DNA from: a virus | Strand: one strand, 5' to 3' | Virus record (IMG/VR): IMGVR_UViG_3300045996_002876 | Location: 42,315 to 106,314 of that record | Length of the DNA: 64,000 nt | Program-made: the position numbers and the translations under genes | Notes under the pieces: generated by a model | The model's database searches: none | Told to the model about the DNA's origin: nothing | What the model saw: the letters and a program-made list of their open reading frames with translations, nothing else | Shown: piece by piece, positions 17,603 through 56,649 of the stretch | Position numbering within the stretch: the first letter of the stretch is position 1 | How the letters are laid out: every line of letters starts with the position of its first letter

Positions 17603-18162
17603 CCCCGGCCCTCCTCTGCGGCCTCGTCCTGGCCCTCCGGGGCGACCTGGCCCACGACCGGTACCCGGTCCGGGCGGCCGCCCAGGCCCGGGTCGAGCGG
17701 CTCCCCGCGGGGGCCACCCCGGCCGTCCGCCGGCTGGCCGCCGACCCGGACCCGCAGGTGGCCGACTGGGCCGGCCGCGAGCTGGCCCGGCGGGCGGCGG
17801 CCGCGACCCTGGCCCGGGCCGAGGCCCTGATGGCCGAGCTGGACCCGGCGAGGTGGGACAAGGTGGAGGCCGAGGGGGCCTTCCTGGAGGCCCTGGTCCG
17901 CCGCCTGTACGCCGACCCGCCGATGGCCCTCCAGTGGGCCGCCCTGGCGTACTACCGGGAGGAGTCCCTGGACGACTGGGGCCGCGACGAGTTCCTCCGG
18001 GTGTTCGCCGGGCGGGCCCCCGGGGACCCGCCGGCGGACCCCTACTGGGCGTCCCCGGCCTTCGGGTACTGGGCCCTGCACGACGCCTGGGCGGCCCGGG
18101 CCAAGGCCGCCGGGAAGACGACGTCCGCCCCCGCCCCCCGCGACACCACGGGACACGAATGA
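17599..18162 (+). CDS. HEAT-repeat-like hypothetical protein (187 aa)
   Basis: 187 residues. The first half (VRAAAQARVERLPAGATPAV, LAADPDPQVADWAGRELARR) is like HEAT/armadillo helical repeats, used for protein-protein contacts. The second half is helical and aromatic. It lies directly before PhoH with an ATGA overlap, so it may act with it. Confidence 0.5.
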   Translation: MTPALLCGLVLALRGDLAHDRYPVRAAAQARVERLPAGATPAVRRLAADPDPQVADWAGRELARRAAAATLARAEALMAELDPARWDKVEAEGAFLEALVRRLYADPPMALQWAALAYYREESLDDWGRDEFLRVFAGRAPGDPPADPYWASPAFGYWALHDAWAARAKAAGKTTSAPAPRDTTGHE

Positions 18163-26880: not shown

Positions 26881-27072
26881 TCACGAGGCCACCTCGATCT
26901 CGTCCTCGAAGTACCAGGCCACCTTCGTCGGGGCCGGGCGGAAGGCCGGCCCGTTCCCGAACCACACCATGTACGGGGGCTGGAGCCAGTCGAACTCGGC
27001 CCGCCCCTTGACGACCCCGACCGCCCCGGTCTGTTTGTCCCGGACCCGGTCGTTGAGATTGAACGCGAACAC
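26881..27072 (-). CDS. Small beta-barrel-like protein (63 aa)
   Basis: 63 residues from GTG 27072. FNLNDRVRDKQTGAVGVVKG resembles the opening of KOW/SH3-like domains; WLQPPYMVWFGNG and VAWYFEDEIEVAS complete a small barrel. The distal gene of the minus arm, next to the terminator. Confidence 0.55.
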   Translation of the reverse strand: MFAFNLNDRVRDKQTGAVGVVKGRAEFDWLQPPYMVWFGNGPAFRPAPTKVAWYFEDEIEVAS

Positions 27073-33600: not shown

Positions 33601-35196
33601 TTAGTCGGCGATCTCGAGGCCGGCGGCGGCCATCACGGTCCGGGCCGCCCGGCCGGGGGAGCCGGCCCGCAGGTCGGTCAGTTCCGTCAGGGCCTCGGCC
33701 TCGTCCTGGGTGGCGTTGTTCCAGAAGGAGATCATGACCTCCTGGGGGTCGGTCTGGAGGGGGGCCCCGTCGGCCTCCGGGTCCCACAGGACCCGGTGGT
33801 CGTCGACGTCCACCCACAGGACCGGGTTGAGGCTGGCGTCCACGTACCCGGAGTCGGCCAGCGGGTGGTACGGGCTCCGGGCGTCCAGGTGGGCCAGGAG
33901 CAGGTCCTCGGCCATCCGCCGGTCGGCGGCCGCCCCGCCGGCGTCCGGAGGGGTCTCGGCCGGGTCCGGATCGACCGGGAAGTCGACCTCCCCGTCCAGC
34001 CCGACCCCCCGCTGAAAGGCCTCGACGGCCTCGTCCAGGGACCGGGGCTCGGCCGGAACGAACCCGGTCAGCCGGGGTGGCGTCGGCCGGTCGTCCGCCA
34101 GCACCTCGGCCAGGGGCCGGCCGGACAGCTCGGCCCGGACGGCCTCCGGGATGGCCCGGGTGGTCACGTCGTGCAGGCTGACCGCCGGGCTCGTCCCGGC
34201 CGGGGCGTCCGGGAGGGCCTTGAAGGTGGTGACCGACGACCCGGACCGGTAGGTCGTTCGGGTGACCTCCCGCCGCCCGCCGGCGGTGACCTCCGTCCAG
34301 GTGACCGAACTCAGGACGTCCGCCGGGCCCCCCTTGGCTTTCCGGTCCGCGTCGCCGGCGTCCGCCGGGGCGGTCGGAGGGGCGGGGCTTTTGAGGGCGG
34401 CCGGGACCGGGGTGTCGAAGTCCCCCTCGTACAGGGCGTGGTTGGTCCCGGCGTAGGCCCCGGCGTAGGCCCCGGCGTACCCGCCCTGCCAGGTCTTGCG
34501 GCTGGCGTACGTCCCGACGTCGAGCCGGCCGTACGCCCGGCACTTGTCCCAGGCCCCGTCGGTCACGTCGTACACGACCCGGCCGTCCAGGGGCTGGTGG
34601 AACCCGGGGGTCCACAGGCCGGCCGCCTCGACGGCCTCCTGGAGGTGGTCCTTCTTCGAGGACCAGGCCACCCCCATCCGGGTGCCCTTGTCGCGGAAGT
34701 CCATTCCGGCCAGGTCGCCCCCGTTGAAGAAGCAGACCCGCCACCGGCGGTCGCGGGAGTCGAACCACTCGATCGCCCCGTACGCCTCGACGTCGTCCAG
34801 GGACCGGCCCTCGGCCAGGTGGGCGAAGATGTGGGTCGAGTCGACGGCGAACGCCCGGTCGTACTTCCGGTTGAGCTCGGCGTGGTTGGCCACACACCCG
34901 TTGTGGGCCCCGACCACCGGGCCGACGACGAACGGGTGGGCGTTCTCCTTGGACTGCTCCCCGGTCGACGGGTACCGGGTGTGCAGGAACCCGCGGGGCT
35001 GGAGGGCCCAGTTGGTCCCGTACTGGGCCAGGAAGAGGGCCATGGTCTCGGCCCCCTTGCGGACCTTCTTGCCGTCGAACACCCCGTACCCCTTGCCCCC
35101 GCGGGCGTCGTTGTAGACCCCGAGGCCGAGGGCCAGGGCCCGCCGGGCCACCCGGCTCGGGGGGTTGCGCCACGCCCAACCTGCTATTCCGCACAC
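33601..35196 (-). CDS. Class II glutamine amidotransferase-domain protein (531 aa)
   Basis: GTG 35196 gives MCGIAG, so removal of Met exposes catalytic Cys2 of an Ntn-type glutaminase. Further motifs: FLHTRYPSTGE (70-80), AHPF (86-89), VGAHNGCVANH with oxyanion Asn99 (95-105), FAVDSTH (116-122) and FFNGGDLAG. The enzyme would release ammonia from glutamine. Residues about 290-531 are not recognised; three GAYA units (about 250-260) join the parts. The next gene upstream is an inserted HNH endonuclease, then an amidoligase, a plausible ammonia user. An asparagine-synthetase or glucosamine-type synthase domain is not visible. Confidence 0.8.
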   Translation of the reverse strand: MCGIAGWAWRNPPSRVARRALALGLGVYNDARGGKGYGVFDGKKVRKGAETMALFLAQYGTNWALQPRGFLHTRYPSTGEQSKENAHPFVVGPVVGAHNGCVANHAELNRKYDRAFAVDSTHIFAHLAEGRSLDDVEAYGAIEWFDSRDRRWRVCFFNGGDLAGMDFRDKGTRMGVAWSSKKDHLQEAVEAAGLWTPGFHQPLDGRVVYDVTDGAWDKCRAYGRLDVGTYASRKTWQGGYAGAYAGAYAGTNHALYEGDFDTPVPAALKSPAPPTAPADAGDADRKAKGGPADVLSSVTWTEVTAGGRREVTRTTYRSGSSVTTFKALPDAPAGTSPAVSLHDVTTRAIPEAVRAELSGRPLAEVLADDRPTPPRLTGFVPAEPRSLDEAVEAFQRGVGLDGEVDFPVDPDPAETPPDAGGAAADRRMAEDLLLAHLDARSPYHPLADSGYVDASLNPVLWVDVDDHRVLWDPEADGAPLQTDPQEVMISFWNNATQDEAEALTELTDLRAGSPGRAARTVMAAAGLEIAD

Positions 35197-35701: not shown

Positions 35702-37588
35702 CTAAAATTCCTCGTACGGCGGGGCCTCGTGCCCGGCGAACTTCGCCTTCCGCTCCTCGAGCCAGGCCCGGACGTCGTCCGACGGGGCGACGGCCAGGAG
35801 GGCCTGCCAGGGGTCGCGGGGGAGGCCGTTGATCCGGTCCGTCGGCCAGGCGGTGGCCACGTGCAGGAGGTTGTCCCACAGGAGGGCCCAGGGGACGATC
35901 TTCTGCGGGTCGGTCGTCCCGGCCGCCAGCCGGCACTCGACCGTCCCCCGCCGCTTGCCCACCAGGGTCCGGTCCCGGCCCCGGCGGTCGAGGGTGTCCT
36001 TCGGGGTGTAGAAGTGGGCGTGCAGGTTGAGGGCGTAGTACCGGGCGGTGGCGTAGTGGTCGCGGGCCTGCTCCAGGTAGGCGGCCCCGGTCCGCCGCGG
36101 GCAGGGCTCGGTCGCCAGCAGGTTCCCGTCGGCGTCGAACCGGTCGATGACCCGGTTCAGGCTCGTACTCCCGAGCCCGCCGTAGACGGCCAGCCGGGCC
36201 AGGTGGCGGGTCCGGGCCTTCTGCCGGCCCCGGACGGCCTTCTCCGGGCACCCCCAGTACACGTACTTGTCCGGCTTCACGAGGTAGGCCCGGACGGCGG
36301 CCAGGAGCTTCTGCCCGCACTTCTCGCAGAAGTTCTTGCCGTCCCGGGTGTACGCGGAGTTCCGCCGCCGGCTGTCCGGGACGGCCAGGAACAGCCCGTC
36401 CTCGACGCGGGCGTACACCTCGACCAGGCGGAGGATCTGGGCCGAGCTCAGGTCCCGGCTGTCGGCGTGGACGTGCAGGCCGCACCGGGCGTTCACCCAG
36501 GCCCCGGCCGCCCGCAGGCTCCGGCACACGTCCTCCACCTGGTCGATAAACGGCTTGCCCCGGGCCGGGGACAGGTTGATCTCGAACCCGGAGGGCGGGA
36601 GGCTCCCGTCGTACACGACCGAGGCGTTCCAGCGGGCGCAGGCGTCGGCCACCCGGTGGGCCCGGCGGGCGTCCTTGAGCCCCCCGACCTCGAGCTCGAC
36701 CGACAGGTACCGGCGGGGGCCGCCGCCGGCCAGGGCCCGGCGGTGGGCGGCCCGGAGGGCGGCCAGGGGGGCCTCCTCGCGGGCCAGGGCCTCGGCGTAA
36801 GCCCACCGGTCGACCGGGTCGGCCCGTCGCTGTTCCCGGCGGAACTTCTCGGCCCGCTGTTCGACGGCGGCCGGGTCGGGCGGGTAGAAGGTCAGGGGCC
36901 GGCGGATCCAGTCGGGGCGGGTCGAGGCGTACGCCCGGCGGTCCTCCCGGTGGGCCTCGGCGGCGTGGGTGTCGTGGTCCTGGCCCGGGCGGAAGACGTT
37001 GGCCTCCGGGGGCGGGAGGGCGGCCGGGTCGAGGGGGGCGCAGGTACAGGCCGGGAGCCGGCACTCCGGGCAGCACCGGCAGGTCGTCCGCTGGCACCGG
37101 GGGCAGCAGTCGCAGGCCGCCGGGTACCGGGACGCGTGCCCGCAGACCCGGCAGGCGAGGTACCCGTCGGCCCGCCGCCGGTACCGGGCCGCGTCGAACG
37201 AGCCCGGCGGGTTGATGGCGGCGGCCGGGTCGTGGGCCGGGGCCGGGCGGCAGGCCGGGCAGGCCCCGCCCGCCAGGGGCTCGTCACACCCGGGGCACCG
37301 GGGGCAGTCGCAGTCCTCCGGGGTGTTCGCGCAGGTGTCACACGCCGGGGCGGACTCTTCGTCCTCGTCCGGGTCGTCTTCGTCGCCCTCCCACGCGTCG
37401 TCGGCGTAGAGGTCGTCCTCGTCGTCGACCGGGGCGGCGGGCGTCTCCGGGATCGGCATGGGGGACTCCGGGGGTTGGGGGAGGATGAAAAACCGGGGGT
37501 CGACCGGGATCGCCAGGTCCGCGAACTCGACCTCCCACGGGCCGCTCGTCGTTGTAACCGCGGTCCAGGCGTTCGGCGTATCGGGCAC
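35702..37588 (-). CDS. Amidoligase (glutamine synthetase-fold COOH-NH2 ligase) with zinc ribbons
   Basis: 628 residues. An acidic linker (55-80) leads to two cysteine-rich regions (CDTC...CPGC...CPAC at 83-113; CRVCGH...CCPRC...CCPEC...CTC at 146-183). From 283 the Amidoligase_2 pattern begins: RYLSVELEVGG, PSGFEINLSPA, ARCGLHVHAD (357-366), then GTVECRLAAGTTDPQKIVPW near 570. Acidic and His residues in these blocks bind ATP-Mg in related ligases. It would join a carboxylate to an amine; the substrate is unknown. It pairs with the glutaminase at 33601. Confidence 0.75.
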   Translation of the reverse strand: MPDTPNAWTAVTTTSGPWEVEFADLAIPVDPRFFILPQPPESPMPIPETPAAPVDDEDDLYADDAWEGDEDDPDEDEESAPACDTCANTPEDCDCPRCPGCDEPLAGGACPACRPAPAHDPAAAINPPGSFDAARYRRRADGYLACRVCGHASRYPAACDCCPRCQRTTCRCCPECRLPACTCAPLDPAALPPPEANVFRPGQDHDTHAAEAHREDRRAYASTRPDWIRRPLTFYPPDPAAVEQRAEKFRREQRRADPVDRWAYAEALAREEAPLAALRAAHRRALAGGGPRRYLSVELEVGGLKDARRAHRVADACARWNASVVYDGSLPPSGFEINLSPARGKPFIDQVEDVCRSLRAAGAWVNARCGLHVHADSRDLSSAQILRLVEVYARVEDGLFLAVPDSRRRNSAYTRDGKNFCEKCGQKLLAAVRAYLVKPDKYVYWGCPEKAVRGRQKARTRHLARLAVYGGLGSTSLNRVIDRFDADGNLLATEPCPRRTGAAYLEQARDHYATARYYALNLHAHFYTPKDTLDRRGRDRTLVGKRRGTVECRLAAGTTDPQKIVPWALLWDNLLHVATAWPTDRINGLPRDPWQALLAVAPSDDVRAWLEERKAKFAGHEAPPYEEF

Positions 37589-52586: not shown

Positions 52587-52707
52587 GACGGTACCCCGCC
52601 AGGAGGCCGAGGGTCAGGAGGGCGAGGAGGGCCCGGAGGCGGGAGCGGTGGCGGGCCCGGGCGGCGGCCAGGCGTTCCTCCAGGTAGTAGTCGGGGAGCG
52701 TGTTCAC
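52579..52707 (-). CDS. Very small membrane protein (42 aa)
   Basis: 42 residues from GTG 52707: basic helix (EERLAAARARHRSRLRALL) running into a membrane segment (LLALLTLGLLAGY). GTGA overlap with the upstream gene and an 8-nt overlap downstream. Confidence 0.5.
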   Translation of the reverse strand: MNTLPDYYLEERLAAARARHRSRLRALLALLTLGLLAGYRHA

Positions 52708-53261
52708 GAGACGGCCTCCTCGAGGGCGAGACGGTGTTCGATCTTTTCCCGGTCCTCCGGGCGGAACAGGTTGAAGACGGGGATCCCCTCGTGGGCGGCG
52801 AGCTGGACGGCACAGGCGGTCCCGCCCTGGGGCTTCCCGTCCATCTCCGGGCACCAGCAGACGACGAACTTGGACGGCGGGTCGCCGGGCATGCCGAGGA
52901 CTTGGGCCACGTTCCGCCCCATGAGGGGGACGATGTTGGGGGCCTCGGTCTTGGGCCGGATCTTCAGGGCCACCAGGACCTTGTGGTTGGCCGCCCACCG
53001 GGCCCTGTCGCACACGTCCTCCCCGAGGACCGGCATGCCCGGGTCGTCCCCGTATTTGTCCTGGCCGAACCGGGGCCACGGGAGGTAGACCACGGCTTTC
53101 CGGTTGGCCCCGACCTCGAAGGCCCGGTCGGCCCCCTGGGCATGGCCCGAGCGGAGGGTCCACCCCTGGGCCCGGAGGTAGGCCGCGACCCGGGTCATGA
53201 GGGCCAGGACGTCCGGCGGGGTCTGACGACTCCCGATCCCCGCGTAAAACTTCTCACTCAT
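52704..53261 (-). CDS. SLOG/DprA-like Rossmann-fold nucleotide-binding protein (185 aa)
   Basis: 185 residues. YAGIGSRQTPPDVLALMTRV, AQGWTLRSGHAQGADRAFEV, the GxxxGADxxF phosphate-binding loop, then KFVVCWCPEMDGKPQGGTAC and LAAHEGIPVFNL. This is the YspA/DprA-related SLOG group frequent in phages. It probably binds a nucleotide or nucleotide-derived signal; the ligand and purpose are unknown. Confidence 0.75.
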   Translation of the reverse strand: MSEKFYAGIGSRQTPPDVLALMTRVAAYLRAQGWTLRSGHAQGADRAFEVGANRKAVVYLPWPRFGQDKYGDDPGMPVLGEDVCDRARWAANHKVLVALKIRPKTEAPNIVPLMGRNVAQVLGMPGDPPSKFVVCWCPEMDGKPQGGTACAVQLAAHEGIPVFNLFRPEDREKIEHRLALEEAVS

Positions 53262-53300: not shown

Positions 53301-53687
53301 TCAGCAGGAGCACCGGAAGTACTTGTTCACCACGTCCCGGAGCCTGACCCGCTTCCCGGTCGCCGTCTGCCAGTTCTCGAAGACGTCGGCCCGGAAGTGC
53401 TCGTCGTCCTCGAGGTCGTCCATCAGGGAGCTCGACCCGTGGCACAGGTTGTCTTCGACGATCAGCCGGACGGATTCCTTCCAGTCGGCCGCGTACAGGC
53501 CGTACTTCTCGTGGACGTTGACCCGGAGCCAGTCCTCGGCGTCCCGGACGGCTTTCGTCCACCGCCGGTGGTAGGCGGCCTCCTCGGGGCGGCCTTGCTC
53601 ATCCAGCCAGTCGGCGAACACCTTGTGCGGGGCCTCGTCGTCCGGGGCCGCGGCCAGGGCCGCGAGGAAGGCCTGTTCGTCGGTCAT
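53301..53687 (-). CDS. TIGR02996 repeat-companion domain protein (128 aa)
   Basis: 128 residues. The first 45 (EQAFLAALAAAPDDEAPHKV, FADWLDEQGRPEEAAYHR) are a textbook TIGR02996 domain, known from large Gemmata-like protein families. The C-terminal 80 residues (DLEDDEHFRADVFENWQTAT, ending YFRCSC) are related to the end of the neighbouring gene at 53689 (PSFFRCAC), so the two are paralogues. Confidence 0.8.
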   Translation of the reverse strand: MTDEQAFLAALAAAPDDEAPHKVFADWLDEQGRPEEAAYHRRWTKAVRDAEDWLRVNVHEKYGLYAADWKESVRLIVEDNLCHGSSSLMDDLEDDEHFRADVFENWQTATGKRVRLRDVVNKYFRCSC

Positions 53688-53688
53688 G

Positions 53689-54363
53689 TCAGCACGCGCA
53701 CCGGAAGAAGGATGGGCGGTGTTTGCGGTCGGGTTCGGTCCGGCGGTACGGGGCGGTCCAGTCCGCTCCGGGCCTTTCCCACCCCCGCGGGACGAGCCCG
53801 GTCACGACCTCGAAGTGGGCCCAGAATTCGGACGGGACGTCGTAGTCCCGGTCCCCCGTGTGAATGCTTTGTGTCCGCCCGTCCCCTTCACAGTGGGAGC
53901 GGGCGACGGCCATCAGGGTGGCGTAGTCGACCGACTCCCACGAGGGCCCGGACGCCCAGGAGTAGCTGTTGGCGAAGTCCTCGAGCCACTGTTTCGACTC
54001 CCGCCAGCGGCGGTATCGGTCGGCCTCGTCTTCCCGCCCGCGCTCGTCCAGCCAGTCGGCGAAGACGAGCCGGGGGGCGTCGTCCTCGGGGGCCTGCTGG
54101 ACGGCGAGGAGGAAGGCTTCTTCGTCGCTACTCATGGCCGGCGGCCTCCAGGTGGGCGTCGTCGATCCCGGGGAGGGCGAGCCCGAGGCGTCGGCCCGGT
54201 AGTTTTCGTCCGCCACGGGCGGCCAGGTGAGGCGGGTTCGGACGAGGGCCTCCTCCCCGGAGTCCCCGAGGTCGTGCAGGAGGTCGGCGTAGGCCCCCCA
54301 GGGGGCGTCGTCCTCCTTGCGGGCCAGGCAGGCGGCCAGGAGCATCGAGCGGGTGTCATTCAT
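53689..54363 (-). CDS. Double TIGR02996-domain protein (224 aa)
   Basis: 224 residues with two copies of the motif: a degenerate one at 8-45 (LLAACLARKEDDAPWGAYAD, LLHDLGDSGEEA) and a canonical one at about 79-120 (EEAFLLAVQQAPEDDAPRLV, FADWLDERGREDEADRYRR). The C-terminus FRCAC matches the adjacent paralogue (FRCSC). Probably duplicated in the phage after capture from the host. Confidence 0.75.
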   Translation of the reverse strand: MNDTRSMLLAACLARKEDDAPWGAYADLLHDLGDSGEEALVRTRLTWPPVADENYRADASGSPSPGSTTPTWRPPAMSSDEEAFLLAVQQAPEDDAPRLVFADWLDERGREDEADRYRRWRESKQWLEDFANSYSWASGPSWESVDYATLMAVARSHCEGDGRTQSIHTGDRDYDVPSEFWAHFEVVTGLVPRGWERPGADWTAPYRRTEPDRKHRPSFFRCAC

Positions 54364-54941: not shown

Positions 54942-55340
54942 TTACCCCCAGGTTTGTTGTTCGCGGGACTTTCGCTGGAGCCACTCGGCGGCGCGGGCGA
55001 CCACCCCCGTGTGGCACTCGGTCACCGTCCGGGCGTCGGCGGCGTCCAGGCACCAGCACCCCAGGACGGCGTCCTTCGGGACCGCCTTCAGGAACCCGAT
55101 CACGCCGCGGTCCCCCGCCTGGATCCGGCCGAAGAGCCACCGGCGGTAGCACTCGACCGACTCGCCCGCGCGGGCGACCCGGCCGTCGGCCGAGTAGTGG
55201 GTCGCCCCGCACGCCGGGCACGGCTTCCTGCGGGCCGAGCACGGGTTGGCCACCGGGGACGCCGGCCACCCGTCGTACGCCCGCCCACAGTAGAGCACGC
55301 CGGCGGGCTTTACGCCGCGGCGGAGTTTGATCACCTTCAT
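54942..55340 (-). CDS. DUF4326-like protein (132 aa)
   Basis: 132 residues: VLYCGRAYDGWPASPVANPC, CPACGATHYSADGRV, ESVECYRRWLFGRI, LGCWCLD...CHTGVVARAAEWL. The DUF4326 pattern (GR-x-x-G-S-NP ... YR-WL ... L-C-C ... CH-x-x-L) is clear, with an extra zinc ribbon inserted at 40-50. DUF4326 proteins are found in phages and plants; activity unknown. Confidence 0.7.
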   Translation of the reverse strand: MKVIKLRRGVKPAGVLYCGRAYDGWPASPVANPCSARRKPCPACGATHYSADGRVARAGESVECYRRWLFGRIQAGDRGVIGFLKAVPKDAVLGCWCLDAADARTVTECHTGVVARAAEWLQRKSREQQTWG

Positions 55341-55379: not shown

Positions 55380-55988
55380 CTACGCCCCGGCCGGGACGGG
55401 GGCGGGGAGGACGAGGGGCGTCGGCTTCTTCGGGGGCTTGACCAGGTCGCAGTCCCAGTGGTTCTCGAACCGGTCGGGGGCGTCCGGGACGAGCGGGTAC
55501 ACCAGGCTCCGCTTGACCAGGCCGACGGCCCAGAGCAGGTAGTGGTAGTCGATCCGGGCGTTGAACAGGCGGACCTCGACGCGGTTCTCGGCCACCTGGT
55601 GGACGGCCTCGCGGGAGTAGTTGGTCTCCCCCTTCTTCCAGGCGAAGCTCCGCCGCTGGGGCCAGACCCGGATCTTGGGCAGGCGGACCCGCAGGTACGG
55701 GGCGGCGTCGTCCGACACGTGGACGTGCAGGCCGCACTCCTTGTTCGTGTAGCACCCGGCGGCCGTCAGGACCTCGAGGACCGTGCGGGTCGTCCGCCAG
55801 TCCGGGTTGACCGGGCTGGTGACCTCGGCGTTGTCCCCGCCGAAGGTGTCGTCCCAGGTCAGGCCCCAGTACTCGCCGGGGTTCTTGTGGGTCAGGACGC
55901 ACGGGACCCCGGCGTTGGTCAGCGGGGTGACCAGGGCCTGGTACGGCACGCCGACGGTCTCGAGCTCGAACCCGAATTTCACGCTCAT
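55380..55988 (-). CDS. Second amidoligase (COOH-NH2 ligase fold, 202 aa)
   Basis: 202 residues: KFGFELETVGVPYQAL, EVTSPVNPDWRTTRTVLEVL, NKECGLHVHVSDDAAPYLRV and ENRVEVRLFNARIDYHYLLW. The E-x-E pair, CGLHVH and E-x-R-x-F are the Amidoligase_2 ATP-Mg and substrate motifs. It is a compact version of the enzyme at 35702, without zinc ribbons. A cyclotransferase-like gene follows two genes upstream (56278), which fits glutamyl-amide chemistry. Confidence 0.75.
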   Translation of the reverse strand: MSVKFGFELETVGVPYQALVTPLTNAGVPCVLTHKNPGEYWGLTWDDTFGGDNAEVTSPVNPDWRTTRTVLEVLTAAGCYTNKECGLHVHVSDDAAPYLRVRLPKIRVWPQRRSFAWKKGETNYSREAVHQVAENRVEVRLFNARIDYHYLLWAVGLVKRSLVYPLVPDAPDRFENHWDCDLVKPPKKPTPLVLPAPVPAGA

Positions 55989-56015
55989 GGCTCCCCTCCG
56001 GGGGTTCTGGAAAGT

Positions 56016-56032
56016 TCAGGACAGACTCTGGA
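56016..56032. promoter_or_regulatory. Operator-like repeat upstream of the second amidoligase
   Basis: TCAGG-N7-CTGGA (17 bp) within a larger symmetry GGACAG-N8-CTGTCC (56019-56038), 28 bp upstream of ATG 55988. It is a variant of the TCAAG-N7-CTTGA sites. Confidence 0.35.
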
Positions 56033-56085
56033 CTGTCCAGAATACTTTCCGGGGGCCGGCGGGGCAACCGGAATCCCCGGAAACA

Positions 56086-56116
56086 CCGAGAGCCGCCCTT
56101 GTGGGGCGGCTCTCGG
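56086..56116 (-). terminator. Intergenic hairpin
   Basis: Perfect 13-bp stem (CCGAGAGCCGCCC / GGGCGGCTCTCGG), 5-nt loop, after the gene ending at 56141. Confidence 0.6.
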
Positions 56117-56140
56117 TTCGGGCGAGGTCGGCGTGGATCG

Positions 56141-56293
56141 TCACCCAGGGTGGATGAAGAGGGCGTACAGTTCGGCGACCACGGCCCTTCGGCGGGCCTC
56201 CAGGCGGAACTCCTCGTCCAGGGACAGGGGGTGGGCGAGCATGAACTCCAGGGCGTCGAGCTCGTCTCGGATGTCGGTTATCGTGCGGGGCAT
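56141..56293 (-). CDS. Small helical protein (50 aa)
   Basis: 50 residues from ATG 56293, overlapping the cyclotransferase end by 16 nt: TDIRDELDALEFMLAHPLSL, DEEFRLEARRRAVVAELYAL. Two acidic-basic helices. Not recognised. Confidence 0.55.
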   Translation of the reverse strand: MPRTITDIRDELDALEFMLAHPLSLDEEFRLEARRRAVVAELYALFIHPG

Positions 56294-56649
56294 GGGGGCC
56301 TCCTCGGGGGGTGCCAGGTGTCGTGCGGGTAGGGGTCGCTGGCGGCGGCCAGGGTCGGGCCCATCAGGTAGGCCTGGGCGGTGCCCCCGTCGGCCAGGGG
56401 GACGGGGGTCCGGCGGTAGGTCCGGGGGTGGCCCTCGACGGCGTCCAGGCGGCGGAGGCAGGCGTCGTCGACGGCCCACACCTCGCCCTGGATTGACCGG
56501 CGGCCGGCGATCAGGCCTGGGATGGTCCGGAAGGACACGAGTTCGAACCCCGGGGCGGTCCGGGCCTCGCGGACGAAGGCCTGGCCCCACAGGAGGCCGT
56601 GGTTGGCGAACCCCCGCTTGAGGGAGCCGTAGACGAACAGGTGGGTCAC
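56278..56649 (-). CDS. Gamma-glutamylcyclotransferase/AIG2-like protein (123 aa)
   Basis: 123 residues from GTG 56649. The substrate loop HLFVYGSLKRGFANHG (YGSL), then IQGEVWAVDDACLRRLDAVE with the catalytic Glu in 'LDAVEG', and YRRTPVPLADGGTAQAYLM are the family blocks at full length. Such enzymes release 5-oxoproline from gamma-glutamyl amines. Located near the second amidoligase. Confidence 0.8.
   Translation of the reverse strand: MTHLFVYGSLKRGFANHGLLWGQAFVREARTAPGFELVSFRTIPGLIAGRRSIQGEVWAVDDACLRRLDAVEGHPRTYRRTPVPLADGGTAQAYLMGPTLAAASDPYPHDTWHPPRRPPCPAR

Follow-up and report, generated by a model that had tools for sequence, protein, structure and literature searches.

A reduced, rearranged amidoligase–cyclotransferase gene pair in a viral gene arm: a possible writer and eraser of gamma-glutamyl amides

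Introduction

The virus record considered here raises the question of what a compact amidoligase and a gamma-glutamyl cyclotransferase, encoded close together in a gene arm that also holds a second amidoligase and a glutamine amidotransferase, would accomplish. A sequence-only reading had proposed that all four enzymes make and remove glutamyl or related amides as one pathway. The window, by which we mean the whole 64,000-nucleotide stretch analysed, comprises bases 42315-106314 of a 106,314-base IMG/VR virus record.

The known five-gene phage cassette consists of a COOH-NH2 ligase, an amidoligase, a GATase, an ATP-grasp enzyme, and a cyclotransferase. According to the accessible portions of the reports, UFV-P2 and LUZ24-like phages list the first four of these together (PMC3890496); the PSA-HP1/RIO1-like cassette has two amidoligases, an ATP-grasp enzyme, a cyclotransferase, and a GATase, and was interpreted as a peptidoglycan change directed against superinfection (PMC5498523); and OM43 phages carry an amidoligase plus a GATase (PMC10580990). 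Those same partial sources describe an AIG2-like gene 97 followed by an amidoligase gene 98 in Arthrobacter cluster AL phages (PMC5513430), an amidoligase (Orf22), an AIG2/GGCT protein (Orf23), and then a terminase gene in Tn6164 (PMC3485107), and an amidoligase near a cyclotransferase in both C. clostridioforme (PMC11318856) and Terrisporobacter prophages (PMC11253131). A planctomycete phage, ZRK32, is likewise reported, in the part of the article available, with a GATase, an amidoligase, a glutathione synthase, and a cyclotransferase (PMC10945688); its record, OP650935.1 (L009), is nevertheless flagged UNVERIFIED_ORG and shows collinearity with Pseudomonas phage PaP4 (the primase being 66% and a 305-residue DNA-polymerase stretch 81% identical), which collinearity makes ZRK32 unusable as proof of a planctomycete-phage cassette. 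Throughout the literature searched, as far as the accessible texts extend, a single prediction underlies the role given to the phage amidoligase and cyclotransferase, and no direct biochemical test of it is described. The prediction of the phage amidoligase role is said to stem from Iyer et al. 2009.

The gene arm and its parts

From position 26881 of the window onward our own gene calls gave 82 genes, every one on the minus strand, and the search with PF12224 found exactly two amidoligase places in the whole record. The two ligases, the glutaminase, and the cyclotransferase that had been named in the arm are all real (Table 1), being distributed over two sites about 18 kb apart. At the first, the GATase_6 gene lies downstream of Am1, and the GTG start at 35196 is preferable to the one at 35151 because it yields M-C-G-I-A-G-W and exposes the catalytic Cys, so that the class-II nucleophile is present. 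At the second, 289 bp separate Am2 from the cyclotransferase, which gene is the second from Am2, as the sequence-only reading had stated, with a single ORF in between.

Table 1. Genes of the two sites, in coordinates of the window
Feature	Position	Strand	Evidence
Am2, compact Amidoligase_2, predicted glutamine-synthetase-like carboxylate-amine ligase, 202 aa	55380-55988	-	PF12224 7.8e-8
Predicted GGACT-type gamma-glutamyl cyclotransferase, 123 aa, Glu72	56278-56649	-	PF06094 5.2e-23
Small predicted ORF between cyclotransferase and Am2, 50 aa	56141-56293	-	codon-usage gene call only
Am1, 628-aa protein with Amidoligase_2 domain	35702-37588	-	PF12224 1.1e-14
Class-II glutamine amidotransferase (GATase_6), adjoining Am1	33601-35196	-	PF13522 3.7e-6, at cut-off; phrog_4736 2.4e-13

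Directly downstream of Am2, at 54942-55340, we observed a DUF4326-like protein (23.8 bits against a Pfam cut-off of 25; phrog_464 match). A DprA-like protein (phrog_768, 9.5e-48) is encoded at 52704-53261. Two proteins of the same neighborhood, at 53301-53687 and 53689-54363, carry TIGR02996 (rpt_mate_G_obs) domains, which were found in none of the 15 other records tested and in none of 14 control genomes. These domains point to a Gemmata-like host, and the virus's earlier description as a planctomycete phage gains indirect support from them. NCBIfam contains a model for neither Am2 nor the cyclotransferase; the PADLOC models matched none of the seven proteins tested, which therefore represent no known defence system; and when IMG/VR was scanned with the single sequences of Am2, Am1, TerL, and the cyclotransferase, no relatives came up.

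The cyclotransferase

The cyclotransferase matches PF06094 (GGACT) with 82.3 bits against a cut-off of 22.8, as well as the phrog_2520 profile "gamma-glutamyl cyclotransferase" (2e-14). Both the loop Y7-G-S-L10 and the glutamate E72 are present, the latter being invariant in 41/41 cyclotransferases of an alignment made from a hand-picked part of 72 ORFs plus three others. The best PDB sequence match is human GGACT (9.5e-9), on whose Glu82—the residue changed to Gln in the 3jud mutant—E72 aligns, so that the active-site glutamate expected of a GGCT-like protein is in place. The structural model (pLDDT 94.5) superposes on human GGACT (3jub) with a Z of 16.2 over 117 residues at 2.1 A and 34% identity, and on the GGACT complex with 5-oxoproline with a Z of 16.0; c4763, of the same fold, gives a slightly higher match (Z 17.6). 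Homology argues well for cyclotransferase chemistry, which this protein would very probably possess. Two types of the enzyme occur in the relatives considered below: type A, to which the window's enzyme belongs, has its nearest match in human GGACT, while type B, as found in locus L100, comes nearest to human GGCT (1.3e-6).

The compact amidoligase

Am2 scores 32.9 bits against PF12224 (cut-off 22), in a match that covers profile positions 3-120 of 245 only. All the motifs by which the protein had been recognized as a compact amidoligase were recovered, namely E8-x-E10, C85-G-L-H88-V-H90, and E138-V-R140-L-F142. In an alignment of 69 rows (Am2 plus 68 of 108 listed ORFs, near-copies and cassette types having been omitted), Am2 keeps 12/12 of the family-invariant columns, located at the sites E-x-E, D, E, CG-H-x-H, and E-x-R, yet its identity is only about 25%. 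The metal-site residues are thus all present, but a near-invariant Arg/Asn pair is not: within a motif R-Y-x(3)-N preceding the E-x-R—which motif we named from these alignments, there being no published definition—the R conserved in 67/69 rows is replaced by N123 and the N conserved in 68/69 rows by A128. The spacer from HxH to ExR, moreover, has 47 residues in Am2 and 71-138 in the other 68 rows (median 86 over all rows), Am2 being shortened by about 25-40 residues and much shorter than every relative aligned. Because the R and N of the near-invariant motif are missing, we file Am2 as a divergent homologue within the Amidoligase_2 family, a putative ligase.

The model of Am2 is confident at residues 1-90 and roughly 140-160, whereas residues 109-124 have a pLDDT <50 and are disordered. 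In the VIA comparison, glutamine synthetases (GS) and YbdK-type ligases occupy all of the first 35 rows, the best being a GS catalytic domain with a Z of 8.3 over 137 residues at 3.2 A; that Z is near the tool's stated noise level, but the top rows agree in family. Foldseek alone gave no PDB match at E<=1e-3. A glutamine-synthetase-like fold is accordingly a prediction from the model. In human GS the metals are held by E134, E136, and E338, with R340 also used; the start of the alignment (model residue 1 on chain residue 127) would presumably place E8 and E10 of Am2 on E134 and E136, and the lost Arg we assume, from what is known of GS, to be a likely phosphate-binding residue. With that R/N pair missing and residues 109-124 disordered, normal ATP binding may be lost. 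We consider the chances of Am2 being an active ligase to be evenly balanced.

If Am2 were no longer a ligase, it could be a GS-fold protein that has degenerated or taken on another task, as a hydrolase, a binder, or a regulator; the cyclotransferase would then act by itself as an auxiliary metabolic gene on cellular gamma-glutamyl compounds. The lost R/N pair, the shortened spacer, and the disordered middle of the model would all fit such a course of events, as would the appearance of Dop, a GS-fold hydrolase, among the fold matches; furthermore, 23 of the best 80 of 302 cyclotransferase-recruited viral loci have no other cassette family inside the stored flank. That all 12 invariant residues were retained at such low identity, that the pairing is conserved in the clade of Am2, and that its codon signature is strong nonetheless make this alternative unlikely: the GC3 of Am2 is 0.995 versus a gene median of 0.967, and in codon terms it is therefore not a decaying frame.

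Pairing in relatives

Since all 82 genes of the arm share one strand, the common strand of Am2 and the cyclotransferase carries no meaning, and under random placement among those genes a cyclotransferase would fall within two genes of an amidoligase with a probability of 9.6%. Adjacency in this genome is thus weak evidence by itself; the association is established by relatives. We took the best 80 of at least 178 viral loci recruited by the amidoligase and the best 80 of 302 recruited by the cyclotransferase, with one locus in both sets, and searched them with local HMMs; to these we added the best 80 of 386 bacterial-genome loci from a genome scan. A small protein of L004, at 17765-18055 (-), is GroES-like by eye.

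With one HMM, the amidoligase-recruited viral loci (best 80 of at least 178) contained a cyclotransferase in 34 instances, a GATase in 10, and neither in 36, and in 32/34 of those pairs the cyclotransferase lay downstream on the same strand at a median gap of 172 bp; with HMMs for the two types, a cyclotransferase was found in 45/80 of the same best-80 set (41 with type B alone, 1 with type A alone, and 3 with both). Conversely, 51 of the best 80 of 302 cyclotransferase-recruited loci had an amidoligase, 27 of the 80 having the amidoligase and cyclotransferase only and 18 all five cassette families. A control scan intended to supply random viral loci, for which we used a gene judged by eye to be dUTPase-like, found nothing; the viral co-occurrence is therefore set against how seldom the cyclotransferase pattern occurs (427 stretches in 2.9 million contigs) and against the gap sizes, instead of against a matched control set. 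Among the bacterial loci (best 80 of 386) the pairing was found in 71/80, the nearest cyclotransferase being always downstream and on the same strand; by type, 61 had B, 9 both, 9 none, and 1 a weak type A plus a GATase. The genomic association in relatives that the sequence-only reading had looked for is, in consequence, strong. A search of plasmids returned one distant cyclotransferase.

The order in the window, with the cyclotransferase before the amidoligase, is inverted with respect to most relatives; in the cyclotransferase-recruited set (best 80 of 302), however, 13/48 same-strand pairs are inverted too. The amidoligase-first order is therefore usual, though not universal, and does not define the mobile-element unit. 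Simple chance within a gene-dense phage arm would account for the neighborhood of Am2 and the cyclotransferase if weight were given to the random-placement probability of 0.096 and to the inverted order; but the near-universal pairing in the genome relatives just described, and the circumstance that the two genes, independently of each other, lead back to one group of paired loci (see below), render that explanation very improbable.

Within the bacterial loci (L179-L258; best 80 of 386), 34/80 had conjugative-element neighbors—DUF6103, TraG-type ATPase, or MobL relaxase clusters—while terminase or portal clusters accompanied 23, both contexts 0, and neither 23, the cluster families being assigned by Pfam on one representative each. 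A ParB_N/N6_N4 methylase cluster with a median position upstream was present in 25 of these best-80 loci, 23 of them phage-type. The amidoligase–cyclotransferase unit is, as these contexts show, a compact operon common to prophages and conjugative elements, and a role specific to virions is difficult to reconcile with its carriage by both alike.

Ancestry of Am2 and the two types of cyclotransferase

In the careful tree, built from 47 of 126 rows in a partly random choice, Am2 joins a clade of 11 rows from GC-rich virus contigs with a support of 100/99.6, which clade has an SH-aLRT of 91 in a larger quick tree. Because Am2 sits on a very long branch (3.37) and is unusual in composition, its exact place inside the clade is unsure. 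Each of the 11 records has one amidoligase gene, none gave a match to GATase_6, and 10/11 hold at least two PF06094 matches, one GGACT-like and one GGCT-like. In two of them (L103 9542-10363 and L118 9614-10399) there is a fused double cyclotransferase with a GGCT-like N-terminal and a GGACT-like C-terminal half, as checked against Pfam for L103; the accessible parts of the literature searched gave no description of such a double form. Nine bacterial loci (best 80 of 386) likewise have both types, among Myxococcales, Deltaproteobacteria, Kofleriaceae, a Rubrivivax MAG, and Myxococcus xanthus AM003. In the window's record, by contrast, type A is the only cyclotransferase present, no type B having been found either there or between Am2 and the type-A gene. 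In a tree of few columns, the five rows nearest to that type-A protein (L103, L100, L074, L034, and L142) are all loci of the Am2 clade. Am2, in that strongly supported clade and with a cyclotransferase 289 bp away, thus shares its ancestry with the paired loci, and the window's unit is a reduced one, with a single cyclotransferase, an inverted order, and a trimmed amidoligase.

Am1 and the GATase as a second module

Am1, on the other hand, groups in the careful tree with cassette rows and with a GATase-paired ligase from Manatee Spring at 96/87, among long branches. As this tree places the two amidoligases apart, their ancestries are separate and a recent duplication does not seem to be their origin; what had been described as a four-gene pathway is consequently better read as two modules. 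Of the earlier proposal, then, the making and removing of glutamyl or related amides stands as a fair account of the Am2–cyclotransferase pair, whereas the unity of the four enzymes does not, given those separate ancestries and the lack of a GATase_6 match in the 11 nearest records.

As another possibility, Am1, the GATase, Am2, and the cyclotransferase might be the scattered remnant of a five-gene cassette that remodels peptidoglycan stem peptides and thereby blocks superinfection. The same families are contiguous, as one cassette, in the Pseudomonas phages Bjorn and PaP4 and in others, including the 18 five-family loci counted above among the best 80 of 302; Am1 falls on the cassette/GATase side of the tree; and the superinfection reading is put forward in the accessible portions of published papers (PMC5498523, PMC10580990, PMC11253131). 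The genes of the window are, however, split between two sites 18 kb apart, and Am2 groups with GATase-less loci instead of with cassettes. Neither a COOH-NH2 ligase nor an ATP-grasp enzyme, moreover, was found in the 106-kb record, which may be incomplete, although the same local HMMs detected them in 20/80 and 25/80 other loci of a best-80 set. We judge a cassette remnant to be decidedly unlikely.

Discussion

The reading that we prefer, and to which we assign about the same chance of being right as of being wrong, is that the pair constitutes a reduced, rearranged writer and eraser of gamma-glutamyl amides derived from the mobile-element amidoligase–cyclotransferase unit, with Am1 and the GATase as a second module. 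By the chemistry of the GS superfamily, Am2 would activate a carboxylate at the expense of ATP and couple it to an amine, that carboxylate being most likely the gamma-carboxyl of glutamate or of a glutamyl residue; the cyclotransferase would cut the gamma-glutamyl–amine bond, cyclizing the glutamyl moiety to 5-oxoproline and freeing the amine. If these reactions take place and both enzymes act on the same bond, as we infer, the two would be the writer and the eraser, or editor, of gamma-glutamyl amides, while the Am1–GATase pair would form plain amides from glutamine-derived ammonia. Against the writer–eraser reading stand the loss of R and N, the long branch, the inverted order, the missing type B, and the chance of adjacency of about 0.1. 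We also considered a modification of nucleotides, or one of the 7-deazaguanine (Gat-QueC) kind, but provisionally set it aside.

The target would probably be something that phages and conjugative elements both need changed, for example the recipient cell envelope. More tentatively, and with a likelihood well short of even, the unit may represent an operon for reversible gamma-glutamylation that is widespread among mobile elements, composed of a GS-fold amidoligase and a GGCT-like and/or GGACT-like cyclotransferase, sometimes fused, that acts on envelope entry or on a shared defence; since phages and conjugative elements carry it alike, its target would be something that both must overcome in the recipient cell. 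The window would then contain this operon in its minimal form, in which the ligase is trimmed and the only eraser is the amine-type one.

What is new here is the clade-level resolution of a set, amidoligase plus cyclotransferase, that was itself already published: two ligase lineages usually named together are now separated, one tied to the GATase and the other to the cyclotransferase. The occurrence in conjugative elements argues against a virion-specific role, and the two-gene form offers a clonable and assayable closed writer–eraser system with the release of 5-oxoproline as a simple readout.

Comparison with known systems

At the level of the single proteins, the window's cyclotransferase has in common with human GGACT (3jub/3juc), its best PDB sequence match, both the fold and the catalytic Glu; the two are 34% identical. 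The predicted core of Am2 aligns to the GS catalytic domain within the glutamine synthetase/YbdK/Dop fold, from which enzymes Am2 differs in being a single domain of 202 aa and in having the near-invariant amidoligase R/N pair replaced. In butirosin biosynthesis, a ligase attaches a gamma-glutamyl group that BtrG, a cyclotransferase of the PF06094 type, later takes off again; that ligase is an ATP-grasp enzyme, and no drug pathway is seen at the window's locus.

At the level of gene sets, the LUZ24-like/RIO1-like cassette (UFV-P2, PaP4, Bjorn, PSA-HP1) resembles the window in combining an Amidoligase_2, a class-II GATase, and a cyclotransferase next to replication genes, but is contiguous and includes the COOH-NH2 ligase and the ATP-grasp enzyme, neither of which was found in the window, where the genes occupy two sites. 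Closer to the pair are Arthrobacter cluster AL, C. difficile Tn6164, C. clostridioforme, and the Terrisporobacter prophages, whose accessible descriptions give the two-family unit and do not report the rest of the cassette, and in cluster AL, according to the available text, gene 97 is the cyclotransferase and gene 98 the amidoligase, the same order as in the window. Am2 is far shorter than its aligned relatives, the proteins of cluster AL, Tn6164, and the prophages being known by description. The pair is, then, ordinary in kind and unusual in form: a divergent member of a published gene set of phages and mobile elements.
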